Below are positions 3,198-27,551 of a stretch of 35,770 nt of DNA, in pieces. The notes beneath the pieces are model-generated. The model was not told where the DNA came from and searched no databases. It was given only the letters and a program-made list of their open reading frames with translations. The stretch spans positions 1-35,770 of the forward strand of contig CADABS010000030.1 in assembly GCA_902786245.1 (NCBI GenBank). The letters run 5' to 3'. How positions within the stretch are numbered: position 1 is the first letter of the stretch; every line of letters starts with the position of its first letter. Both the position numbers and the translations under genes were made by a program. Source of the stretch: an uncultured Erysipelotrichaceae bacterium (GTDB lineage Bacteria > Bacillota_I > Bacilli_A > Erysipelotrichales > Erysipelotrichaceae).

Positions 3198-3235
3198 CTT
3201 ACCCCTCAAACGCCAACTTACCCCTCAAGCGGCAA
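3198..3235. repeat. Tandem 19-bp repeats, possible remnant of an insertion sequence end
   Basis: Two adjacent 19-bp units at 3198-3216 and 3217-3235, both starting CTTACCCCTCAA, match at 17 of 19 positions. They sit exactly where the hsdM homology has been lost. Multiple short repeats at the termini are typical of IS21-family elements, but no transposase is present, so the IS assignment is only a suggestion. Confidence 0.4.
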
Positions 3236-3878
3236 AACCGGCGGAGGAATAATTAAATTGTATCAATCCCGGTGTTTTTATATCGCATATAACATCATCT
3301 GCTTTCGGATCCATCAGTTCTACCATCATACGGATAATATGTCTCGGTGTTCTAAACTGTCCATTGCGTCCTGACTGGGAGATCTTTGAAAGAAGATATT
3401 CATATGTATCACCGCGTACGTCCGCAGACTGTGATTCATTCATTAATGTGTAAATATCATCAAGAGAATCTACCACTTTTGAGAGAAGGAGCGGTGTCGG
3501 AAGTTTAAAGATTGCATCATCCATGTATTTGGAATATGCACTATTTTTATCTCCATGAAGGCTCTTAATAAAGGGGAATACCCATTCCTGTACGACGCTG
3601 TACATCTTGCCGGCAGGAAAGTCATGAAATACGCTCCATTTCAATTGCTGGCCATCTACAGTGCGATCGCCAATCTGTACTTCACTTGCGAAGATACTCT
3701 TGTATGGCAGGCCGAGCATAGCTGCTTCTTTTGCTCTAAGGTTATCTGAATCATCCAGATCATGAATGAACATCAGATACGTAATCTGCTCGATTACATC
3801 CAGCGGATTCACCAATCCGCCTGCAGCGAATATATCACACAGGCCATCAATTCTGTTTTTCAGTTCTCCAGTAATCAT
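3225..3878 (-). pseudogene. hsdM: hsdM remnant: N-terminal part of a type I restriction-modification methyltransferase
   Basis: The frame from ATG 3878 (GGAGAAGACAA before it) encodes an HsdM N-terminal helical domain (GELKNRIDGLCDIFAAGG; IEQITYLMFI) and the start of the N6-adenine methylase domain (GQFRTPRHIIRMMVEL). Homology stops at DVICD, where intact proteins continue with the SAM-binding motif PACGTAGF; instead about 18 unrelated residues run to a stop inside the 19-bp repeats. No catalytic NPPF, no hsdS and no hsdR are in the window, so the enzyme must be inactive. The start overlaps the Fic stop codon as ATGA, so the two were translationally coupled, a common arrangement of Fic genes within type I RM loci. 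The truncation looks like an insertion or deletion event. Confidence 0.85.
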
Positions 3879-4933
3879 TTGTCTTCTCCATTCCATATGT
3901 AAGATGTATACCGGCCGCCGCCAATTTTGGTGATTTCACCATTTGCAAGCAATTCTGCCAGGGTTCTCTGCACCGTTGCCTGACTGATATCAGGACACAA
4001 TTCCATAAGTTCTGCTTTGGTAATCTTCCCGAGATGATCTTTGATCAGTTCCCGGATACGCTCAGCTTTTGTGAAACCACCTGTAGATAGTAATTTCACC
4101 CTGCTGCTGAATTCACGGTATGCAGCAGCGATGACACCGAGCATATATCTTACAAACGGCAGATAATCATTTGTGCCTTCATGCCATTCATACGAACTCT
4201 CCTGCAGCACTTCGTAATATGTTTCTTTGGAATCAGTGATCAGTTTTTCAATACTGATATACTTCCCCACAATGTATCCGGATCTGTAAAGCAGAAGCAG
4301 TGTCAGCAGCCTGCTCATGCGCCCGTTGCCGTCATTAAACGGATGTATACATAGGAAATCCAGAATGAACATAGGAATCAGAAGAAGCGGATCCATTTCC
4401 GGATCACTGACTGACTTTATGAATTCATCACATAGCCTGTCCATCGTTTCTGGTGTTTCCCAGGCTGAAACCGGCTGGAAGCGTACCCTCTGTGTTCCAT
4501 CTGGCAGTTTCTCCGCAATGACATTATCGGAGTTTTTGAAGTTTCCTCCGATTGACATGCCGCTGAACTTATACAGATCCCTGTGAAGCTGAAGAATCAT
4601 GGATGAGCGGGGCGGAATGTAATCATAGCTTTCGTGGATCGTAGTCAGTACATCGCGATACCCTGCAATTTCTTTTTCACTCCGTGTTTTTGGCATCGTT
4701 TTTTCACGTACAATCAGCTTCAGTCTTTCATCTGTTGTTATGATGCCTTCAATGCGGTTGGACGCTTCCGTACTCTGGATCTTTGCGATCTCCAGCAGCT
4801 GTGTGAGAAGATCACTTTCAGCTTCCAGAAACAAAGTCTGTTCACCTTTGAACTCATGAATCACTGTCAGCATATTCACAATGTTCGGCGTTAAAAGCTT
4901 TGCATATTCATTTTTGTAGTTGAACTCTCTCAT
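3875..4933 (-). CDS. Fic-family protein with C-terminal winged helix
   Basis: 352 residues. HPFNDGNGR at 197-205 matches the HxFx(D/E)GNGRxxR active-site motif of Fic proteins, which transfer AMP or another nucleotide group from a nucleotide cofactor to a target protein. SNRIEG at 58-63 fits the (S/T)xxxE(G/N) inhibitory helix, here N-terminal, so the protein should be auto-inhibited (class II). Residues about 290-345 look like a winged helix (ITKAELMELCPDISQATVQRTL), suggesting DNA binding and perhaps autoregulation. Start ATG 4933 follows GAGGTAACTGA. The next gene is the broken hsdM, overlapped by ATGA. Upstream lies an array of four related 15-bp sites that could be its operator. Target unknown. 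Confidence 0.9.
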   Translation of the reverse strand: MREFNYKNEYAKLLTPNIVNMLTVIHEFKGEQTLFLEAESDLLTQLLEIAKIQSTEASNRIEGIITTDERLKLIVREKTMPKTRSEKEIAGYRDVLTTIHESYDYIPPRSSMILQLHRDLYKFSGMSIGGNFKNSDNVIAEKLPDGTQRVRFQPVSAWETPETMDRLCDEFIKSVSDPEMDPLLLIPMFILDFLCIHPFNDGNGRMSRLLTLLLLYRSGYIVGKYISIEKLITDSKETYYEVLQESSYEWHEGTNDYLPFVRYMLGVIAAAYREFSSRVKLLSTGGFTKAERIRELIKDHLGKITKAELMELCPDISQATVQRTLAELLANGEITKIGGGRYTSYIWNGEDK

Positions 4934-5114: not shown

Positions 5115-6266
5115 CTATTCATATTTTTCAGCGTTGCGCTGATTAATTGCCTTAATTCTGTCTTTTTCATCCGATACTGCGTAATCCAGAGACATCGTAG
5201 CTGACTCATGGCCCATCAGGTCGCGAATCACTGCCGGATTTGTACCGGCGTTATGAAGATCCGTACTGAACTGATGCCGCAGCATATACAGGGTAAATGT
5301 GACCTTTGCCTTCTTTGCCACATTGCCCACCAGTGTGTCGATATCATCAATATCCATCAGTTTTCCGGCTCGATCCGAAAGAAGAATATTGTTAAGCGAC
5401 CAGTTGACGCATTCTTCCAGAATCGGTTTCAGCTGATCAGGAATGGGGACATTGCGTATTGACTGCTGTGTTTTCGGTGCGCCTATTTCAAGGATGCTTT
5501 CCACCGTACTGTGTGCCGCTTTTGAGATGGATATGAACCCCTCATCCAGATGAATATCCGATTTCATCAAGGCAAAGGTTTCTGCCGGCCTCAGACCGCA
5601 ATAGTACATGATCTGTATCGCATAATATACCGCCTTGGATCGATAGCTTCCGGAGGGTGATGAACTGTTGTAACAAAGCAATGTATTACAGAATGTCTGC
5701 AGATCCTCTTCGGAGATTTCTTTCTTTCGATGTTTTCCCTGTCTGCATTCAGGTATTACGACAGCAACTGTCCTGTCTATCACATTGATATTCTGCATTG
5801 CACATGCTTTATATATACGCCGCCATACTGCCAGCAATCCCGCTACCTGGCGCTTTGTATGCGTTCTGGCATATGTGTTGATGGATTCCTGAATATTGGC
5901 GGATGTGATCTTGTCAATCGTCTTATCGCCGTATCTTTCAATGCCGTACTTATAGAAATAGTCGTGTTTCTTTCTGGTCTTTTGCCTGACAGGAAACAGA
6001 TCGAACGTTTTTTCATAAAGGCTGGATACTTTTTTGAAGTTGCTGACGGAGTATCCGCTGCGCATTTTAAGCAGAGTTTCGTCACGCAGCTGGCATGCGA
6101 ACTGCAGTGCCTGCTTTCTGCTCTCAAAATCATCGATTTTTATGGATTTTCTGAAAGTCTGATCGTACATCCGGATACATATCTCAAATGAATGTGCTCC
6201 GGCTTTACTGATACGTTCTGTTATATATTTTTCACTCCGTTTAGATCTTGCTGCTGTCTTTGCCAT
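5115..6266 (-). CDS. Tyrosine recombinase (integrase) of an integrative mobilizable element
   Basis: 383 residues in the usual three-part layout: an N-terminal arm-binding-like domain (about 15-70), a SAM-like core-binding domain (about 80-165) and a catalytic domain (180-383). Catalytic residues visible are R226 (CGLRPAE), a lysine near 265, R330 (YMLRHQ), H353 (MGHES) and the nucleophile Y362 (LDYA). The first position of the HxxR box is tyrosine (YMLR), a common variant. The start overlaps the end of the cI-like repressor gene by 26 bases, so both are read from one promoter, and a hairpin terminator follows. It should insert and excise the element, with the small HTH protein at 7250 as a candidate directionality factor. 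Confidence 0.92.
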   Translation of the reverse strand: MAKTAARSKRSEKYITERISKAGAHSFEICIRMYDQTFRKSIKIDDFESRKQALQFACQLRDETLLKMRSGYSVSNFKKVSSLYEKTFDLFPVRQKTRKKHDYFYKYGIERYGDKTIDKITSANIQESINTYARTHTKRQVAGLLAVWRRIYKACAMQNINVIDRTVAVVIPECRQGKHRKKEISEEDLQTFCNTLLCYNSSSPSGSYRSKAVYYAIQIMYYCGLRPAETFALMKSDIHLDEGFISISKAAHSTVESILEIGAPKTQQSIRNVPIPDQLKPILEECVNWSLNNILLSDRAGKLMDIDDIDTLVGNVAKKAKVTFTLYMLRHQFSTDLHNAGTNPAVIRDLMGHESATMSLDYAVSDEKDRIKAINQRNAEKYE

Positions 6267-6909
6267 CTTCTTCGTAAATATCTATCTCAGTCTGTTTGCT
6301 GCTTCTGGAATTCTTCATATCGGAGTATGAACTATCCCAGAAATCCTTGAACTTTTCTGTCACATATTCCCGCATTTCATCCTTCGGCCCGCAGGAATAG
6401 ACAATCAGATATGTCATTGCCTGTCTGATCCATGCGTCATTGTTCCTAATGCATTCAATACATTCACCATAATCCTGATCAATATAGCCGGATGTCGTCA
6501 TCAGAACATGTGAGTCTTCCATCCACTTGATCAGCGTGTCCATCATTACACTTCTCTTTTTTGTCATCGTCTCCCAGAAATGCTGATACTTGTAATGAGG
6601 AATCACAAATCCTTCCAAATCAACCCTGTCTTCATCGATCTTTTCACCTGCAATGTATTTTGTGCCATCATCCATCACCATTGCCTTTTCGCTTAACATT
6701 CCCTTTAAATACTCAACGGAAACATCAAATTCTTTTGCGAGCCTATCCAGCTGATCGGGAAGAATCATTTCTTCCCGGTAGATTCCTTTTACTGTATCAA
6801 GAGATCTGTCCAGCAGATCTGCAATATCAGACTGTTTCAGATGATTCTGCTTAGAGATATATTTAACCCGCTTTTTACTGAATCTTATTTTTTCACTTTG
6901 CTTCGCCAT
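6241..6909 (-). CDS. XRE/cI-like repressor of the mobilizable element
   Basis: 222 residues. ATG 6909 is preferred to the longer frame because GGAGGATGAGAGA lies directly upstream. Residues about 15-70 make a helix-turn-helix: YISKQNHLKQSDIADLLD, then DQLDRLAKEFDVSVEYLKGML, which is the end of an XRE domain. The rest is an all-helical, charged region without a recognisable protease or sensor motif. The gene overlaps the integrase and diverges from the plus-strand genes at 7035. A perfect palindrome at 6962-6986 between the two directions is the likely operator. The layout matches phage-like repressor control of an element's excision and replication genes. Confidence 0.8.
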   Translation of the reverse strand: MAKQSEKIRFSKKRVKYISKQNHLKQSDIADLLDRSLDTVKGIYREEMILPDQLDRLAKEFDVSVEYLKGMLSEKAMVMDDGTKYIAGEKIDEDRVDLEGFVIPHYKYQHFWETMTKKRSVMMDTLIKWMEDSHVLMTTSGYIDQDYGECIECIRNNDAWIRQAMTYLIVYSCGPKDEMREYVTEKFKDFWDSSYSDMKNSRSSKQTEIDIYEEDGKDSSKI

Positions 6910-6961
6910 TCTCTCATCCTCCAAAAGTGTGATAGCCCGGCACATAAATTCATCTTGTCTA

Positions 6962-6986
6962 AAAAGTGTTATTAAGTAACACTTTT
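6962..6986. promoter_or_regulatory. Perfect palindrome, operator between divergent element genes
   Basis: AAAAGTGTTA and TAACACTTTT (10-bp arms, 5-base spacer) form a perfect inverted repeat. A half-site, CAAAAGTGTGA, recurs near 6921, just upstream of the repressor's ribosome binding site. The XRE protein is the probable binder. Confidence 0.65.
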
Positions 6987-7034
6987 ATTGTAGTTGTTGA
7001 TGTTGCAGACTGTCAACTTCAGTTTGGAGGGTAT

Positions 7035-7253
7035 ATGGGTTATTCATACAGAAGAAGCAAAGCGAAAACCAGATGTAATGAGCGGATTTATTCTGCGGCG
7101 GAAGAATATGGTCTTTATCATTGGCAAATCGCAGATCTGCTCGGCATGCGGGAAGATACATTTTCAAAGAAACTGAGACATGAGCTTCCTGAAGAAGAAC
7201 AGGATCTGATCATTGCCACAATCCGCAGCTATCGAAAGGAGTACAGCGAATGA
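7035..7253 (+). CDS. Small HTH protein of the element, 72 residues
   Basis: ATG 7035 follows GGAGGGTAT; the frame is open upstream but without a better start. The protein is basic, and residues about 20-50 (YSAAEEYGLYHWQIADLLG, then DTFSKKLRHELP) form a helix-turn-helix like those of small Cro-type or phage-associated regulators of Firmicutes. It is the first gene of the plus-strand operon and overlaps the next gene by four bases (ATGA). It is divergent to the cI-like repressor, the place where a Cro or activator gene is expected. The exact role is inferred from position only. Confidence 0.7.
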   Translation: MGYSYRRSKAKTRCNERIYSAAEEYGLYHWQIADLLGMREDTFSKKLRHELPEEEQDLIIATIRSYRKEYSE

Positions 7254-7516
7254 CTGCAGAAGCGAAAAAAGAAATTGTACAGGAATATTTCAGCAGAGAT
7301 GAAGCTGGCGAATATCTTCAGGTAGACGGCAGAAAGATTGATTCATTCCGGAAAGCCGGCCTGCTCAGATACGGAAGATTAGGAAGAAACTATATTTACC
7401 GCAAATGCTGGCTGGATGATTTCATGGAAGAATGGGCCGGATATGATCTGAGTTCTGAAGAAAATATCCGGCTTGCCATTCAGGCGAGAAACTGGAGGTC
7501 TGTACATAATGTATGA
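7250..7516 (+). CDS. Excisionase-like HTH protein, 88 residues
   Basis: Residues about 13-50 (YFSRDEAGEYLQVDGRKIDSF, then KAGLLRYGRLGRNYIY) look like a MerR-type winged helix of the excisionase family, with the LGRNYIYRK wing contacting DNA. Such proteins bend the attachment site and drive an integrase toward excision. ATGA overlaps join it to the gene before and the gene after. The remaining C-terminal part (LDDFMEEWAGYDLSSEEN) is acidic. The assignment rests on fold-like sequence and on its position in an element with a tyrosine integrase. Confidence 0.65.
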   Translation: MTAEAKKEIVQEYFSRDEAGEYLQVDGRKIDSFRKAGLLRYGRLGRNYIYRKCWLDDFMEEWAGYDLSSEENIRLAIQARNWRSVHNV

Positions 7517-8604
7517 AAGATGATCAGAAAAGCCAGGCTGCTGTAACAGCCGGTTATACAGAGCCTCAGCAAATGGATCTGTTCTCAGATGATGGCATTT
7601 ACATGAAGACTGCTTCGGAACTTGATAATTCGCCTGTTGAATGGCTTGTTCCCGGCTGGATTCCTAAAAGAGGCATTACATTGCTTTGCGCAGACGGCGG
7701 TACCGGAAAAACATTTATATGGATCTCACTTCTTGCCAGTCTGTCCAGAGGCGAAAGCACATTTCTGAGGTATGATCCTCATCTGCATTCAGCGCATACC
7801 GTCATGTGTTTCAGCGGCGAAGATCCTGAAAACATTATTCGCGCCCGCCTGGAGAAAGCCGGAGCAGATCTAAAAAATGTATACGTCTCAGCACAGGATT
7901 CAGAAACCAGCCACGATATAACATTTCAAAGCAGCCAACTTGAAAAGATCATCCGCAAGTATCAGCCGGCAATCATCGTTTTTGATCCGCTGCAGAGTTT
8001 TATCGGCAGCAACGTTGACATGTCACGGCGCAACCAGATGCGAAGCGCCTTAAAGCCTCTTGGGTTTCTGTCCTCGAAATATAATCTGCCGGTGCTGATC
8101 ATTATGCATACGAATAAACGGCCCGGTGAAAGCGGCCGTGACAAAATGGCGGACAGTTCAGATATATGGGATCAGGCAAGAAGCGTCATGATGTGCGGCT
8201 TCGACGAGAATAAGCAGCGTTATATTTCTCTGGAAAAATCAAGCTACGCAAATCATATGGAGGTACCGACAATCATATTCAGTCTGGATGAAGGAAAAGT
8301 GCATTTTGTAGAGACTACGCCAAAAAAGATGAAAGACTTCGTCAAAGATGCCCGGGATCAGCGTAAAGAAGCTGCCCAGCTGGATCACCCGACGAAAAAA
8401 CAGGAATGTGCAAATGAGATTCTCCGGATCCTGTCTGAGTACAACGGTGAATGCCCGGGAGAAATCATGGTTGGTCTTTTATCGGAATCAGGCTACAGCA
8501 ACAAAACAATCCGAACAGCGAGAGAAGATCTGCAAAAAACAGGATTCATTACAAATAAGAAAAACAGCGAATCGAGAACGATCATTCACCGAACAGAAAA
8601 ATAA
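7513..8604 (+). CDS. RepA-like AAA/RecA-fold ATPase
   Basis: 363 residues. CADGGTGKT at 59-67 is the Walker A motif and AIIVFDPL at 153-160 the Walker B, followed by IMHTNK around 200, as in the hexameric RepA helicases of mobilizable plasmids and elements. The C-terminal 60 residues (CPGEIMVGLLSESGYSNKTIRTAREDL) form a winged-helix-like module that may bind an origin or a partner. The start is fixed by an ATGA overlap with the preceding gene. It could unwind DNA for autonomous replication of the excised element or process transfer DNA. No primase or separate initiator is visible, so how replication starts is open. Confidence 0.85.
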   Translation: MKDDQKSQAAVTAGYTEPQQMDLFSDDGIYMKTASELDNSPVEWLVPGWIPKRGITLLCADGGTGKTFIWISLLASLSRGESTFLRYDPHLHSAHTVMCFSGEDPENIIRARLEKAGADLKNVYVSAQDSETSHDITFQSSQLEKIIRKYQPAIIVFDPLQSFIGSNVDMSRRNQMRSALKPLGFLSSKYNLPVLIIMHTNKRPGESGRDKMADSSDIWDQARSVMMCGFDENKQRYISLEKSSYANHMEVPTIIFSLDEGKVHFVETTPKKMKDFVKDARDQRKEAAQLDHPTKKQECANEILRILSEYNGECPGEIMVGLLSESGYSNKTIRTAREDLQKTGFITNKKNSESRTIIHRTEK

Positions 8605-20434: not shown

Positions 20435-20478
20435 AATCTGCCTCATTTCAGGTGTAATTATACATGAAGAGCAGAAAT

Positions 20479-20515
20479 TAAAAAAAGAATCCACTCATGA
20501 CCTGGATTCTTTTTC
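20479..20515 (-). terminator. Strong terminator between the tandem RNA element and pepP
   Basis: AAGAATCC and GGATTCTT (20504-20511 with 20485-20492) pair across an 11-base loop, with a run of Ts on the minus strand and TTTTTCTTC on the plus strand. It would end the minus-strand RNA before pepP. Confidence 0.8.
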
Positions 20516-20611
20516 TTCTTTTTTTCTTCGGCGTCATTGCGCCGACGTGAAATATATGTTTTCGCTGTTCACAGATTTCTCTGTGTGATTAATTTATTCA
20601 CTTTTACGGGA

Positions 20612-20775
20612 CTTTATTGTCCATTGGTCTGCCCTCATGCAGACTTTCACTTTCTTTCGTGAATGTTTTCTTCGCCCCTCTTCGACGTTCTCTGCATCTT
20701 CGAAGTGAGCGGCTCTCAATATTCGAGCAATACCTCTTTCATTTTCTTGTACCTCCGTTATTATTTCTGCGGTAC
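20612..20775 (-). repeat. Tandem module A (promoter-distal copy)
   Basis: 164 bp, offset exactly 185 bp from module B at both ends. Contains the micro-ORF at 20742-20716 (MKEVLLEY), stem arms 20700-20705/20680-20685 and hairpin 20627-20644. Confidence 0.85.
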
Positions 20776-20796
20776 AGAATTTTTTTGATTCTTACT

Positions 20797-20960
20797 CTTT
20801 ATTGTCCATTGGTCTGCCCTCATGCAGACTTTTTACTTTCTTTTTTCTGATCGCTTTCTACGCCCCTCTCCGTGTTCTCTGCAACGCCGGAGTGAGCGGC
20901 TATCAGTATTCGAGCAATACCTCTTTCATCTCCTTGTACCTCCATTATTTTTTCTGGTAC
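20797..20960 (-). repeat. Tandem module B (promoter-proximal copy)
   Basis: 164 bp, related to module A along its whole length but diverged most in the central stem and in an A-rich linker. Its micro-ORF (20929-20903) encodes the same MKEVLLEY peptide, with only a TAC/TAT difference from copy A. Eight residues are too few to prove coding. Confidence 0.85.
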
Positions 20961-20975
20961 TTTATCTGCACCTTC

Positions 20976-20984
20976 AATATAGCA
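20976..20984 (-). promoter_or_regulatory. Extended -10 promoter of the tandem RNA
   Basis: TGCTATATT on the minus strand; initiation about 7 bases downstream would fall just before the first module. The same extended -10 form precedes the tRNA-Val, tRNA-Ala and HAD genes. Confidence 0.5.
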
Positions 20985-21029
20985 AAGATAAAATAAATGA
21001 ACAGTCTAGGCAGAAAAAATTATTTATTC

Positions 21030-21071
21030 TATAATTACTTTGTTGGGTGCCCGGAAAGGGCGATTTTTTTT
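21030..21071 (+). promoter_or_regulatory. nudC promoter (-10) and leader hairpin with T tract
   Basis: TATAAT at 21030-21035 is followed by TGCCC-GGAAA-GGGCG (21048-21062) and eight Ts (21064-21071), directly before the GGAGGA ribosome binding site. The short stem could be a weak intrinsic terminator or pause site in the nudC leader. Confidence 0.45.
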
Positions 21072-24081: not shown

Positions 24082-25194
24082 GACTGTTTGTCGCTCTTGA
24101 TCTGCGACCGCAGATAGCTGTCGATAAAGCCGTCCAGGTCGCCGTCCATGACTGCCTGGATGTTTCCGACTTCATAGCCTGTCCGCAGATCTTTGACCAT
24201 CGTATACGGATGGAAAACGTAGGAACGGATCTGTGATCCCCATTCATTGGCTTTGACTTCGCCGCGGACCGCTGCCGCTCTTTCTTCGTTTTCCTTGATC
24301 CGCAGCTGCAGCAGTTTGCTCTTCAGCATATTCAGACATGCTTCACGGTTCTGCAGCTGTGAACGCTGGGTCTGGCAGAATACAACGATGCCGGTCGGCT
24401 TGTGCGTCATGCGCACCGCAGAGTCGGTTTTGTTGATATGCTGGCCGCCTGCACCGGATGAACGCATCGTAATGACATCCAGATCCTTTTCATCGATTTC
24501 GATTTCCGCGTCGTCTTCAAACTGCGGCATGACTTCCACCGACGCAAAACTTGTATGGCGGCGGGCATTGGAGTCAAACGGCGAAATGCGGACGAGACGG
24601 TGGATGCCGTGCTCCGCTTTCAGATAGCCGTAAACCATCGGACCTTCGATCAGTACCGAGCAGGACTTCATGCCGGCTTCTTCACCTTCCTGATAGTCCA
24701 TCAGGGTGATCTTGAATCCCCGGCGTTCCGCCCAGCGCATATACATGCGGTACAGCATGCTGGCCCAGTCCATCGCCTCCGTGCCGCCGGCACCGGGATG
24801 GATTTCCAGAATTGCGTTGTGGTTGTCATATTCGCCGGACAGCAGCACCTGAATCTCAAACGCATCAAATTTCTTCATCGTCTCCTCAAATTCTTCACTG
24901 ACAAGTTCATTCATGTCAGGATCGAATGAGGAAGACAGCTCTGTCAGCCCTTCGTTCAGTTCACCCAGAGCTGCGTCAAGGGCTTCGTGTGTCGATACCA
25001 GTTCTTTCAGCTGGTTTGTTTCCCGGATGATCCGCTGGGCTTTTTTCTGGTCGCTCCAGAAATCCTCCGCGTTCATCAGCTCATTATTCTCTTCTATCTT
25101 CTTACGTTTAGACGCGAGGTCAAAGAGAGTAGCCAAGCGACTCCAATTTGGCCTGGCTGCGAGCTACGCTCTGTTTCATTTCATACAGTTCCAT
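24078..25194 (-). CDS. prfB: Peptide chain release factor 2, with programmed +1 frameshift
   Basis: ATG 25194 (GGAGGAATAAAA before it) opens a 24-codon frame that ends at an in-frame TGA (25122-25120). Skipping one base, T at 25122, at CTTTGAC lets the ribosome continue in the +1 frame: CTT then GAC CTC GCG, giving 371 residues. This is the classic autoregulatory site: scarce RF2 slows termination and raises frameshifting. The SPFDSNARRH segment (codon-recognition SPF) and SSGAGGQHINKTDS (GGQ) confirm RF2. The usual AGGGGG stimulator just before the CTT is missing; only a GGAG 13 bases upstream is seen. It starts 2 bases after secA, a conserved Bacillota pairing. Confidence 0.95.
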
Positions 25195-25196
25195 TT

Positions 25197-27551
25197 TTAT
25201 TCCTCCTGATTTGCCGGCATGACCCGTATGTTCATGCAGTATGCAACGATTTCCTGCGAAATCGTGCGCATCATTTCTTCAAACAGTTCAAATCCTTCCT
25301 GCACATAGGCCTGAAGCGGATTATGCGACGCATAGCTGCGCAGACCGATGCCGCTGCGGAGCTTGTCCATCATGTCGATATGATTGGACCATGCCCGGTC
25401 GAACATGCGGAGCGCTGCTTCCTTTTCCATCGGGATGACCTTTGCCTTGACCGGTGCGATCTTGTTTTCGTATGCCTCCCAGGCTTTGTTTACGCAGAGA
25501 TCGACCATATCCTCACGGCTCTTTCCGTTCAGATCCGAAGCCGAAACCAGATTTCTGAATCCGATATCGTTGAGACCTTTAACAAGTCCTTCCGTATCCA
25601 CTTCCTGATTGCGCGATTCCATATTTGTATGGGATGCCGCCATATCCGAGATGACCCGCTTGAACATATCATGGATCACGACATGGACATCTTCATTTTC
25701 AAGGATGTAGTTTCTCTGTTCATACATCGTTTCTCTCTGCTGGCGCATGACATCGTCATACTGCAGCAGCTGCTTACGGGCATCGTAGTTGACGCCTTCG
25801 ACTCTGTGCTGAGCACTGGAAATCGACTTGGTAACGGTCTTGGATTCGATCGCGGTATCGCCCAGCGACGCAAACAGACTTTCCATTCTTTCCGAACCGA
25901 ACCGGACCATCAGATCGTCCTGTACGGATACATAGAATCTCGACATGCCCGGATCGCCCTGACGTCCTGCACGTCCGCGCAGCTGGTTGTCGATACGTCT
26001 GGATTCATGACGCTCGGAACCCAGAACGCACAGACCGCCGAGTTCACGCACGCCTTCACCCAGCTTGATATCGGTGCCTCGGCCGGCCATGTTGGTCGCG
26101 ATCGTAACTGCACCGCGTCTGCCGGCATTGGCAATGATCTCCGCTTCTCTTGCATGGTTCTTGGCATTGAGGACCTGATGGGGAATCTTGCGCTGATGGA
26201 GATACTTGGAAATCAGTTCCGATGTTTCGACCGCAATCGTACCGACCAGCACCGGCTGTCCCTTCTCATGCTTTTCAACGACTTCGTTGACCAGGGCATT
26301 GAACTTGGCTCCCTTTGTGCCGTATACGGCATCCGGGTAATCGATCCGCTTGACCGGTACATTGGTCGGGATCTCAAAGACATACATATTGTAGATTTCA
26401 AGGAATTCTTCTTCCTCTGTCTTTGCCGTACCGGTCATGCCGGCCAGCTTGTTGTAAAGACGGAAGAAATTCTGGTAGGTGATCGTTGCCAGTGTTGTTG
26501 TTTCCTGTTTGATGGAAATGCCTTCCTTGGCTTCGACCGCCTGATGGAGACCGTCGGACCACTGTCTTCCCTTCATCAGACGTCCGGTGTTCGGGTCGAC
26601 GATGACGACTTCGTCATTTTCTTCATCGACGACATACTCGACATCGCGCGTCATGATGTAATTGGCCTTCAGAGCCTGATTGATATGATGAAGCAGCTGG
26701 GTATGCGACAGATCGTACAGGTTGTCTACCCGGAAGACACGCTCTGCTTTGGAAACACCCTGTTCCGTCAGCTGCACGCTTCTGGATTTGACATCGATCT
26801 CATAGTCTTCGTCTTCTTTCAGCTTGGAGACAAAACGGTTGGTCTGCAGATACAGATTCGCTGTCTGCTTCTGTCCGCCGGAAATAATCAGCGGGGTACG
26901 GGATTCATCGATCAGGATCGAGTCGACTTCGTCCACCAGAGCGAAGTTCAGCCCCCGCAGAACCCTGTCCTGGACTCTGGTGACCATGTTGTCACGCAGG
27001 TAGTCAAAACCGAGTTCGGAGTTTGTCGTATAGGTGATATCGCATGCATAGGCTGCACGCTTCTGCGCTTTCGACAGCTGGCGCAGATTCAGACCGACCG
27101 TCAGACCGAGCCAGCGGTGGATCTGTCCCATCCACTCCGAGTCACGCTGCGACAGGTATTCATTGACCGTAACAACATGCACGCCTTTACCTTCCAGAGC
27201 GTTGAGATATACCGCCATGACCGAAGTCAGGGTCTTGCCTTCACCGGTCTTCATTTCCGCAATATCGCCGCCCTGCATCACCGCTGCGCCCATCAGCTGC
27301 ACCGGATACGGGAACTCGCCGATAACTCTGCGGCAGGCTTCTCTTGCCGTCGCGAATGCTTCAACAAAGATATCGTCCAGCGTCGCACCGTTTGCCAGTT
27401 TTTCTTTCAGTTTCGGTGTCATCGCCTTCAGTTCGTCATCAGACATTTCTCTGTATTTCTTTTCAAGATCCAGCACCGGCTGAATCTTTTTTTCTATCTG
27501 TCTCAGTTTACGGCCGTCTTCATTGAAGATACGGGATAAAACATTTGCCAT
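25197..27551 (-). CDS. secA: Preprotein translocase ATPase SecA
   Basis: 784 residues from ATG 27551 (GAGGAGGTTAT before it). MKTGEGKT (100-107) is Walker A and LVDEVDSILIDESRTPL carries Walker B; IATNMAGRGTDIKLG and GRAGRQGDPG complete the helicase motifs. The protein pushes preproteins through SecYEG at the membrane. It ends at NIRVMPANQEE without the linker and CPCGSGK zinc tail of longer SecAs, a form seen in several Firmicutes and mollicute relatives. A promoter lies at 27588-27616, inside the end of comFC. Confidence 0.97.
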   Translation of the reverse strand: MANVLSRIFNEDGRKLRQIEKKIQPVLDLEKKYREMSDDELKAMTPKLKEKLANGATLDDIFVEAFATAREACRRVIGEFPYPVQLMGAAVMQGGDIAEMKTGEGKTLTSVMAVYLNALEGKGVHVVTVNEYLSQRDSEWMGQIHRWLGLTVGLNLRQLSKAQKRAAYACDITYTTNSELGFDYLRDNMVTRVQDRVLRGLNFALVDEVDSILIDESRTPLIISGGQKQTANLYLQTNRFVSKLKEDEDYEIDVKSRSVQLTEQGVSKAERVFRVDNLYDLSHTQLLHHINQALKANYIMTRDVEYVVDEENDEVVIVDPNTGRLMKGRQWSDGLHQAVEAKEGISIKQETTTLATITYQNFFRLYNKLAGMTGTAKTEEEEFLEIYNMYVFEIPTNVPVKRIDYPDAVYGTKGAKFNALVNEVVEKHEKGQPVLVGTIAVETSELISKYLHQRKIPHQVLNAKNHAREAEIIANAGRRGAVTIATNMAGRGTDIKLGEGVRELGGLCVLGSERHESRRIDNQLRGRAGRQGDPGMSRFYVSVQDDLMVRFGSERMESLFASLGDTAIESKTVTKSISSAQHRVEGVNYDARKQLLQYDDVMRQQRETMYEQRNYILENEDVHVVIHDMFKRVISDMAASHTNMESRNQEVDTEGLVKGLNDIGFRNLVSASDLNGKSREDMVDLCVNKAWEAYENKIAPVKAKVIPMEKEAALRMFDRAWSNHIDMMDKLRSGIGLRSYASHNPLQAYVQEGFELFEEMMRTISQEIVAYCMNIRVMPANQEE

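Follow-up and report, generated by a model that had tools for sequence, protein, structure and literature searches.

A previously undescribed tandem RNA family with embedded micro-ORFs in gut and rumen Erysipelotrichaceae, with a candidate translation-gated fold

A stretch of 35,770 nucleotides from an uncultured Erysipelotrichaceae bacterium (the window) carries two related modules on one predicted minus-strand transcript with its own promoter and terminator (20479-20984), and these belong to a previously undescribed RNA family of gut and rumen Erysipelotrichaceae. Comparison with homologues argues, with high confidence, for a real, autonomous and partly coding RNA family, which displays the defining features of no known kind tested. 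This comparative sequence evidence shows the gene family and its autonomy, coding selection on a first micro-ORF (ORF1), covariation of two hairpins (C and S) and of a kissing interaction, and pairings that would be mutually exclusive. The predicted features are listed here in window coordinates.

20475..20984, minus strand: predicted transcription unit as a whole, about 490 nt, bounded by the extended -10 and the terminator, transcription start predicted near 20969 (sequence; conserved promoter, 75 loci in 12 genera; terminator inverted repeat)
21000..21007, minus strand: AGACTGTT box, -35-like (homologue alignment)
20976..20984, minus strand: extended -10, TGC-TATATT (sequence)
21030-21035 (TATAAT -10), 21040-21047 (TTGTTGGG), 21048-21062 (hairpin) and a T run, all within 21030-21071, plus strand: divergent promoter with predicted tiny divergent transcript, conserved with the RNA
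20936..20960, minus strand: module 1 hairpin S (GUACC/GGUAC) with SD1 GGAGG in its loop (covaries across genera)
20903..20929, minus strand: module 1 micro-ORF1, MKEVLLEY (coding signature, 63 distinct sequences)
20861..20898, minus strand: module 1 hairpin C, loop UGCAGA at 20878-20883 (11 covarying pairs)
20812..20829, minus strand: module 1 hairpin E (GUCUGC/GCAGAC); 5' strand UCUGCA at 20823-20828, alternative kiss with loop C; SD2 (GAGG) in loop
20792..20809, minus strand: module 1 probable micro-ORF2, MDNKE
20749..20776, minus strand: module 2 hairpin S (UGUACC/GGUACA) with SD1
20716..20742, minus strand: module 2 micro-ORF1, MKEVLLEY (coding signature)
20673..20711, minus strand: module 2 hairpin C, loop AUGCAGA at 20691-20697 (covariation)
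20627..20644, minus strand: module 2 hairpin E, kissing strand UCUGCAU at 20637-20643, SD2 in loop
20604..20624, minus strand: module 2 probable micro-ORF2, MDNKVP
20529..20585, minus strand: 3' domain, hairpins F 20570-20585, G 20549-20563 (weak here) and H 20529-20544 (F and G recur across genera)
20475..20521, minus strand: intrinsic terminator, arms 20475-20493/20503-20521, T run 20480-20486 (inverted repeat)

Locus, promoter and distribution

The modules are visible as direct repeats, with an 83-nt segment at 88% identity (offset 187) and a 36-nt segment at 100% identity (offset 185) that holds, in both copies, the GTCTGC/GCAGAC hairpin described in the earlier note together with CCAATGGACAATAAAG. 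That note had placed two related modules in exact register at an offset of 185; the modules stand, and the register is not exact because a 2-nt slip separates the ORF1 part (187) from the hairpin part (185). Also borne out are a minus-strand unit running from an extended -10 (TGCTATATT, 20976-20984) to a strong terminator, and the micro-ORF MKEVLLEY in each module, where the SD GGAGGTAC is followed by ATGAAAGAGGTATTGCTCGAATA(C/T)TGA (8 aa). The 506-nt strand folds at z = -7.7 relative to dinucleotide shuffles. That first reading missed a probable second micro-ORF (ORF2) after each GCAGAC hairpin, the SD1 hairpin, a kissing pair (TGCAGA/TCTGCA), and the nature of the promoter, which is conserved and non-canonical and has a divergent promoter next to it.

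In the homologue alignment, 75 loci of 12 genera have AGACTGTT or a close variant ahead of the RNA, followed after 18 nt by a -10 box, with the 18-nt spacing exact in nearly all homologues; farther upstream the homologues carry an A-tract, ATTATA and CAACAA. The AGACTGTT element is a rigid non-canonical -35-like box, not TTGACA, and could reflect an activator or sigma factor dedicated to it. Within the genome of the window, the search for other genes with the AGACTGTT/-10 promoter gave three further pattern matches, no more than the control, and hence no regulon, and a search for the upstream element elsewhere in this genome found nothing above chance.

Read on the opposite strand, the upstream region contains TATAAT and TTGTTGGG, with a hairpin and T-rich tail in 48 of 74 loci, and the divergent promoter in the window was also recovered independently by pattern scan. 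Its conserved form, TATAAT-N4-TTGTTGRG followed by a hairpin and T run, predicts a terminated transcript of about 30 nt, and transcription from it seems to terminate at once. The divergent promoter is present even at loci with no gene on that strand (e.g., L190 and L202). Antisense pairing between the divergent transcript and the RNA was considered and rejected, own combinations scoring 7.51 and cross-genus combinations 7.58, i.e., no excess. On the plus strand at 20626-20645 and 20811-20830, hairpin E and the T-rich complement of GAAAGTGAAA together score as terminator-like, and such a hairpin could stop antisense transcription.

The earlier description of an unrecognised RNA is upheld by a search of Rfam 15, which gave no match and only chance-level weak scores of at most 21 bits. 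The covariance analysis proposed at the time assigned the element to no Rfam family and found covarying stems among homologues, and the proposed copy-number comparison showed that the number of modules varies among genomes. Together with the conserved promoter, these results favour the original suggestion of an ncRNA with repeated functional units and its own promoter and terminator. By BLAST, one module is present in most of 35 same-genus genomes, far more than chance would give, and absent from another family of the order. The 40 named contigs matched by a core pattern search all belong to Erysipelotrichaceae, Solobacterium sp. or Lactimicrobium massiliense, a cultured strain of which (Marseille-P4301) has a copy. 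The covariance model matched 43 of 196 same-family genomes and 93 of 316 genomes of the order. In all, the model places the element in about 90 genomes, and reading of the sequences confirmed 12 genera (its own and 11 further), all within one family. Weak matches outside the family (E 0.001-0.01; in the class and in a second family of the order) proved on reading to be chance hits within protein genes, and the matches G209 and G303 inside the family are false positives, lying in protein genes or without the element. The window holds two full modules, one genome carries an array of at least four at a contig end, and two others have three ORF1 units; further genomes have several separate loci, the range extending from one module to tandem arrays with at most five model matches per genome. 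Targeted literature searches gave no description of the RNA, although some published list of predicted RNAs may contain it as an unnamed entry.

Coding signature and covarying structure

Micro-ORF1 has the consensus M-K-[KEQR]-[VI]-L-[L/K]-[E/N]-[Y/F/I], with 0-3 or more extra residues. Among 63 distinct ORF1 sequences, gathered with a peptide pattern that biases positions 2, 4 and 5 (K/R, V/I/L and L/I/M-like), codon 4 is only Val or Ile and codon 5 is Leu in 63 of 63 with all six Leu codons used, which needs many separate changes at one position. Single-base codon differences comprise 3854 synonymous and 1480 nonsynonymous cases (72% vs. 25% expected), as counted over pairs of related sequences without phylogeny, and frame 0 yields 21 distinct peptides compared with 49 and 55 in the other frames. 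Homologues from independent DNA and covariance searches give the same ORF1 pattern. The codon comparisons indicate that micro-ORF1 is a real coding sequence under amino-acid selection. The earlier note had counted a protein-coding conservation pattern against an RNA; such a pattern is found in the 8-codon ORF1, and conserved RNA structure is present alongside rather than replaced, which suggests that the RNA is both structured and coding. The C-terminal end of the peptide varies (EY, NY, EI, EYSL, YIC), unlike classic arrest peptides, in which the last residues matter most. Selenocysteine insertion at the ORF1 UGA stop was rejected, as most homologues stop at TAA or TAG.

Hairpin C, placed directly after the ORF1 stop, shows compensatory changes at 11 of 11 pairs among 91 distinct sequences aligned to the covariance model. 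Its covariation score is 0.415 vs. 0.155 for shuffled and at most 0.131 for slid structures, the slid controls being of particular weight because a model-fitted alignment leans to its own structure. The single compensated pair noted earlier in this stem is present (CUCCG/CGGAG to CUUCG/CGAAG), whereas the register with a G-G mismatch gives way to CGCUC-A-CUUCG/CGAAG-A-GGGCG, whose A.A mismatch is supported by the homologues and covaries. Hairpin E varies little in the same 91-sequence alignment and is the only hairpin recovered by RNAalifold on a plain MAFFT alignment, because MAFFT misplaces the arms of C. The SD1 hairpin S also covaries (score 424 vs. a permutation maximum of 396), with variants that include GUACC/GGUAC, ACAUA/UAUGU, GAUAGAU/AUCUAUC and AAGACA/UGUCUU.

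When the C loop is combined with the 5' strand of E from its own module, 56 of 75 combinations allow a kissing interaction of 5 bp or more, compared with 17% of cross-genus combinations, and the summed score of this pairing, 394, exceeds the permutation maximum of 348. The pairing falls into classes by genus, namely GCAGA/UCUGC, CCAGA/UCUGG, ACAGA/UCUGU and GUAGA/UCUAC. By sequence complementarity, 51 of 79 modules have a kissing strand that overlaps hairpin E, and there the two pairings could not coexist. As hairpin E is weak or lost in genera g36 and g46, where the kissing pair stays, a two-state switch would not be universal. Hairpins F and G of the 3' domain recur across genera with different sequences in the alignment comparison. 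A second kissing pair, between AACUG after ORF2 and the loop of hairpin G, was tried and rejected (own 3.49 vs. cross-genus 3.54).

After the GCAGAC hairpin comes ACC(A/G)ATG, 8 nt behind the GAGG of the hairpin loop, and this probably marks a second micro-ORF of about five codons beginning MD-, with its SD in the GTCTGC/GCAGAC loop. The reading frame is exactly five codons long in 49 of 80 distinct sequences, compared with 6% by composition; residues beyond MD vary and are not conserved as amino acids. In most homologues a conserved AAYUGAAUA lies some 20-24 nt downstream of the start codon of ORF2 (e.g., L070 after 6205); this motif is kept even where a longer ORF2 reads through it, and conservation of the ORF2 stop could belong partly to this motif.

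Proposed translational gating and competing readings

The reading preferred here, in which confidence and doubt are about evenly balanced, is an autonomous RNA gene whose fold would be gated by translation of ORF1 (a translation-gated riboregulator). Its dedicated promoter would produce a structured transcript of about 490 nt in which each module contains a translated 8-codon micro-ORF1 and probably a micro-ORF2 of about five codons, with SD1 held within the small hairpin S and hairpin C directly after the ORF1 stop. The C loop (NCAGA) would kiss the UCUGN strand, or that strand would close hairpin E and cage SD2. When a ribosome starts on ORF1 or completes it, S and the base of C would open and the equilibrium of C:E kissing with hairpin E would shift; this shift would control ORF2 as well as folding of the 3' domain, such that the state of the RNA would depend on ribosome flow over the conserved M-K-x-V/I-L-L peptide. 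Expression of the RNA, translation of ORF2, the direction of the switch and an output in trans are elements that we infer. Translational gating is the simplest account of the selection on ORF1, the post-stop hairpin, the kissing pair and the SD2 cage. More tentatively, the element might found a new class of autonomous 'ribosome-flow sensor' RNA, in which translation of micro-ORF chains, with nothing encoded downstream, would set a fold acting in trans, with transcription from a promoter class of its own that comes with a tiny, terminated divergent transcript.

Among the closest known systems are translational attenuators of the ErmC/ErmA type. They share a short ORF with its own SD and a strand with two competing partners, where pairing with one partner cages the following SD; leader ORFs in tandem are found there as well. 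Mutually exclusive pairings around a downstream SD are predicted here in 51 of 79 modules, the SD being that of the five-codon ORF2. In contrast to those attenuators, the RNA has no regulated protein gene in cis, the 'regulated' ORF has about five codons, the C-loop pairing is a kissing interaction, and the N-terminus rather than the C-terminus of ORF1 is conserved. By analogy, the RNA would work like a translational attenuator yet lacks the defining feature, a regulated gene in cis. The dual-function RNAs RNAIII, SR1 and VcdRP are likewise stand-alone and of regulatory size, and their short translated ORF would have its counterpart in ORF1, for which coding selection and a stand-alone context are seen here, but their ORFs have tens of codons rather than eight, and the present RNA has up to several tandem copies and strong switch-like internal pairings; it gave no Rfam match to these families. 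The ilvB-II uORF-type motif (PMC10272879), found by comparative genomics, also combines a conserved start and in-frame stop with structured RNA, but it lies at a fixed distance upstream of one gene, whereas the gene downstream of the RNA here is not constant, and the RNA has a terminator of its own at its end.

Alternatively, although this is considered unlikely, the output could be a micropeptide, with ORF1 a leaderless peptide gene for a signal or intracellular ligand, tandem copies raising its dose or variety, and the structures only controlling translation. The strong selection on the ORF1 amino-acid sequence is consistent with this, as are arrays that multiply ORF1 more often than E/ORF2 and variants that stand side by side in L047/L213 (MKKVLLNY, MKEVLLNY, MKEVLLEF). 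A leaderless communication peptide gene of the same size, 8 aa, is known in Firmicutes, and the SIP/LCP peptides of RopB systems (PMC10518010) share with ORF1 a short frame without signal sequence and with its own promoter. However, ORF1 is embedded in a conserved structured RNA, its peptide is charged (K, E) and not hydrophobic like known LCPs, and no receptor gene travels along: pepP, a metal ATPase, nudC and prfB are among the neighbouring genes, and a RopB-like receptor is not adjacent in the window or at most loci. No constant RopB/RRNPP receptor was found next to the RNA, the HTH_3 genes near it in some genera having no Pfam TPR match; such HTH_3-type regulators occur at L206, L216, L183 and L203 in several other genera and, though not constant, are possible partners of the RNA. 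Neither the conserved kissing pair nor the second micro-ORF would be explained by a peptide output. Both features speak for the RNA as the output, and the tandem multiplication of ORF1 slightly favours the peptide.

A type I toxin-antitoxin system, with ORF1 a toxin repressed by the structures or by the divergent tiny transcript, is improbable. The tight structure around the SD, the multiple copies and the divergent small transcript would be in keeping with it, but such systems are defined by an antisense RNA and a hydrophobic peptide of about 20 or more residues, whereas ORF1 encodes a charged peptide of 8-10 aa without a membrane span, and the predicted divergent transcript neither overlaps the RNA nor shows complementarity above chance. 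To our knowledge, known type I toxins are all well above 8 aa.

Still less credible is a cis-acting leader (attenuator or riboswitch) of pepP, which the earlier note had raised as a double sensor. Both the leader-like uORF with terminator and the position of pepP as the next gene in the window and in a large share of same-genus genomes fit such a role, and within the genus the gene order secA-prfB-rluD-(amylase, nudC)-RNA-pepP-xth-pepV is old. In many same-genus genomes, however, the RNA and pepP are separated by a convergent metal P-type ATPase, identified by its sequence start only, or by other genes; pepP itself, an M24 aminopeptidase, is served by a separate -10 box beyond the terminator. 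Neighbours in other genera are unrelated; no constant co-directional downstream gene was found, the next gene varying and lying on the opposite strand in 15 of 37 loci. A pepP leader as the general function is already refuted. Least credible of all is that the element is a mobile DNA repeat or an already known stable RNA (tmRNA, 6S), since the stand-alone, structured character and the multicopy state in some genera are offset by a tmRNA at C46 and, at C2, a 6S-like match that falls below the family cut-off, both in the same genome, by the absence of an Rfam match, by searches of viral, phage and plasmid collections that gave no match to the RNA, and by synteny conserved within the genus.

Significance and other features of the window

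Genes of eight codons are invisible to annotation, and here one appears under clear amino-acid selection in 12 genera, inside a folded stand-alone RNA. If the preferred translation-gated model is true, the element would be an attenuator that lost its gene and is now a free-standing regulator, and it would become testable whether ribosome flow over the micro-ORF is the signal that the RNA transmits; were a trans target found, it would become an unusual dual-function RNA. Either way, a sizeable RNA family is added to a poorly studied gut and rumen group.

Elsewhere in the window, prfB (RF2; 25078-25200, minus strand) carries a programmed +1 frameshift site of the usual kind, ...TCT CTT TGA C..., behind a start segment of about 24 codons. 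At 5115-8604, a phage-type integrase, a small protein and an AAA_25 ATPase lie upstream of a tRNA gene and are a possible integrative element. At 3225-4933 (minus strand), a Fic/DOC protein adjoins a short ORF with matches to HsdM_N and to the beginning of an N6 methylase domain, which may be a type I methylase that has been truncated or frameshifted.
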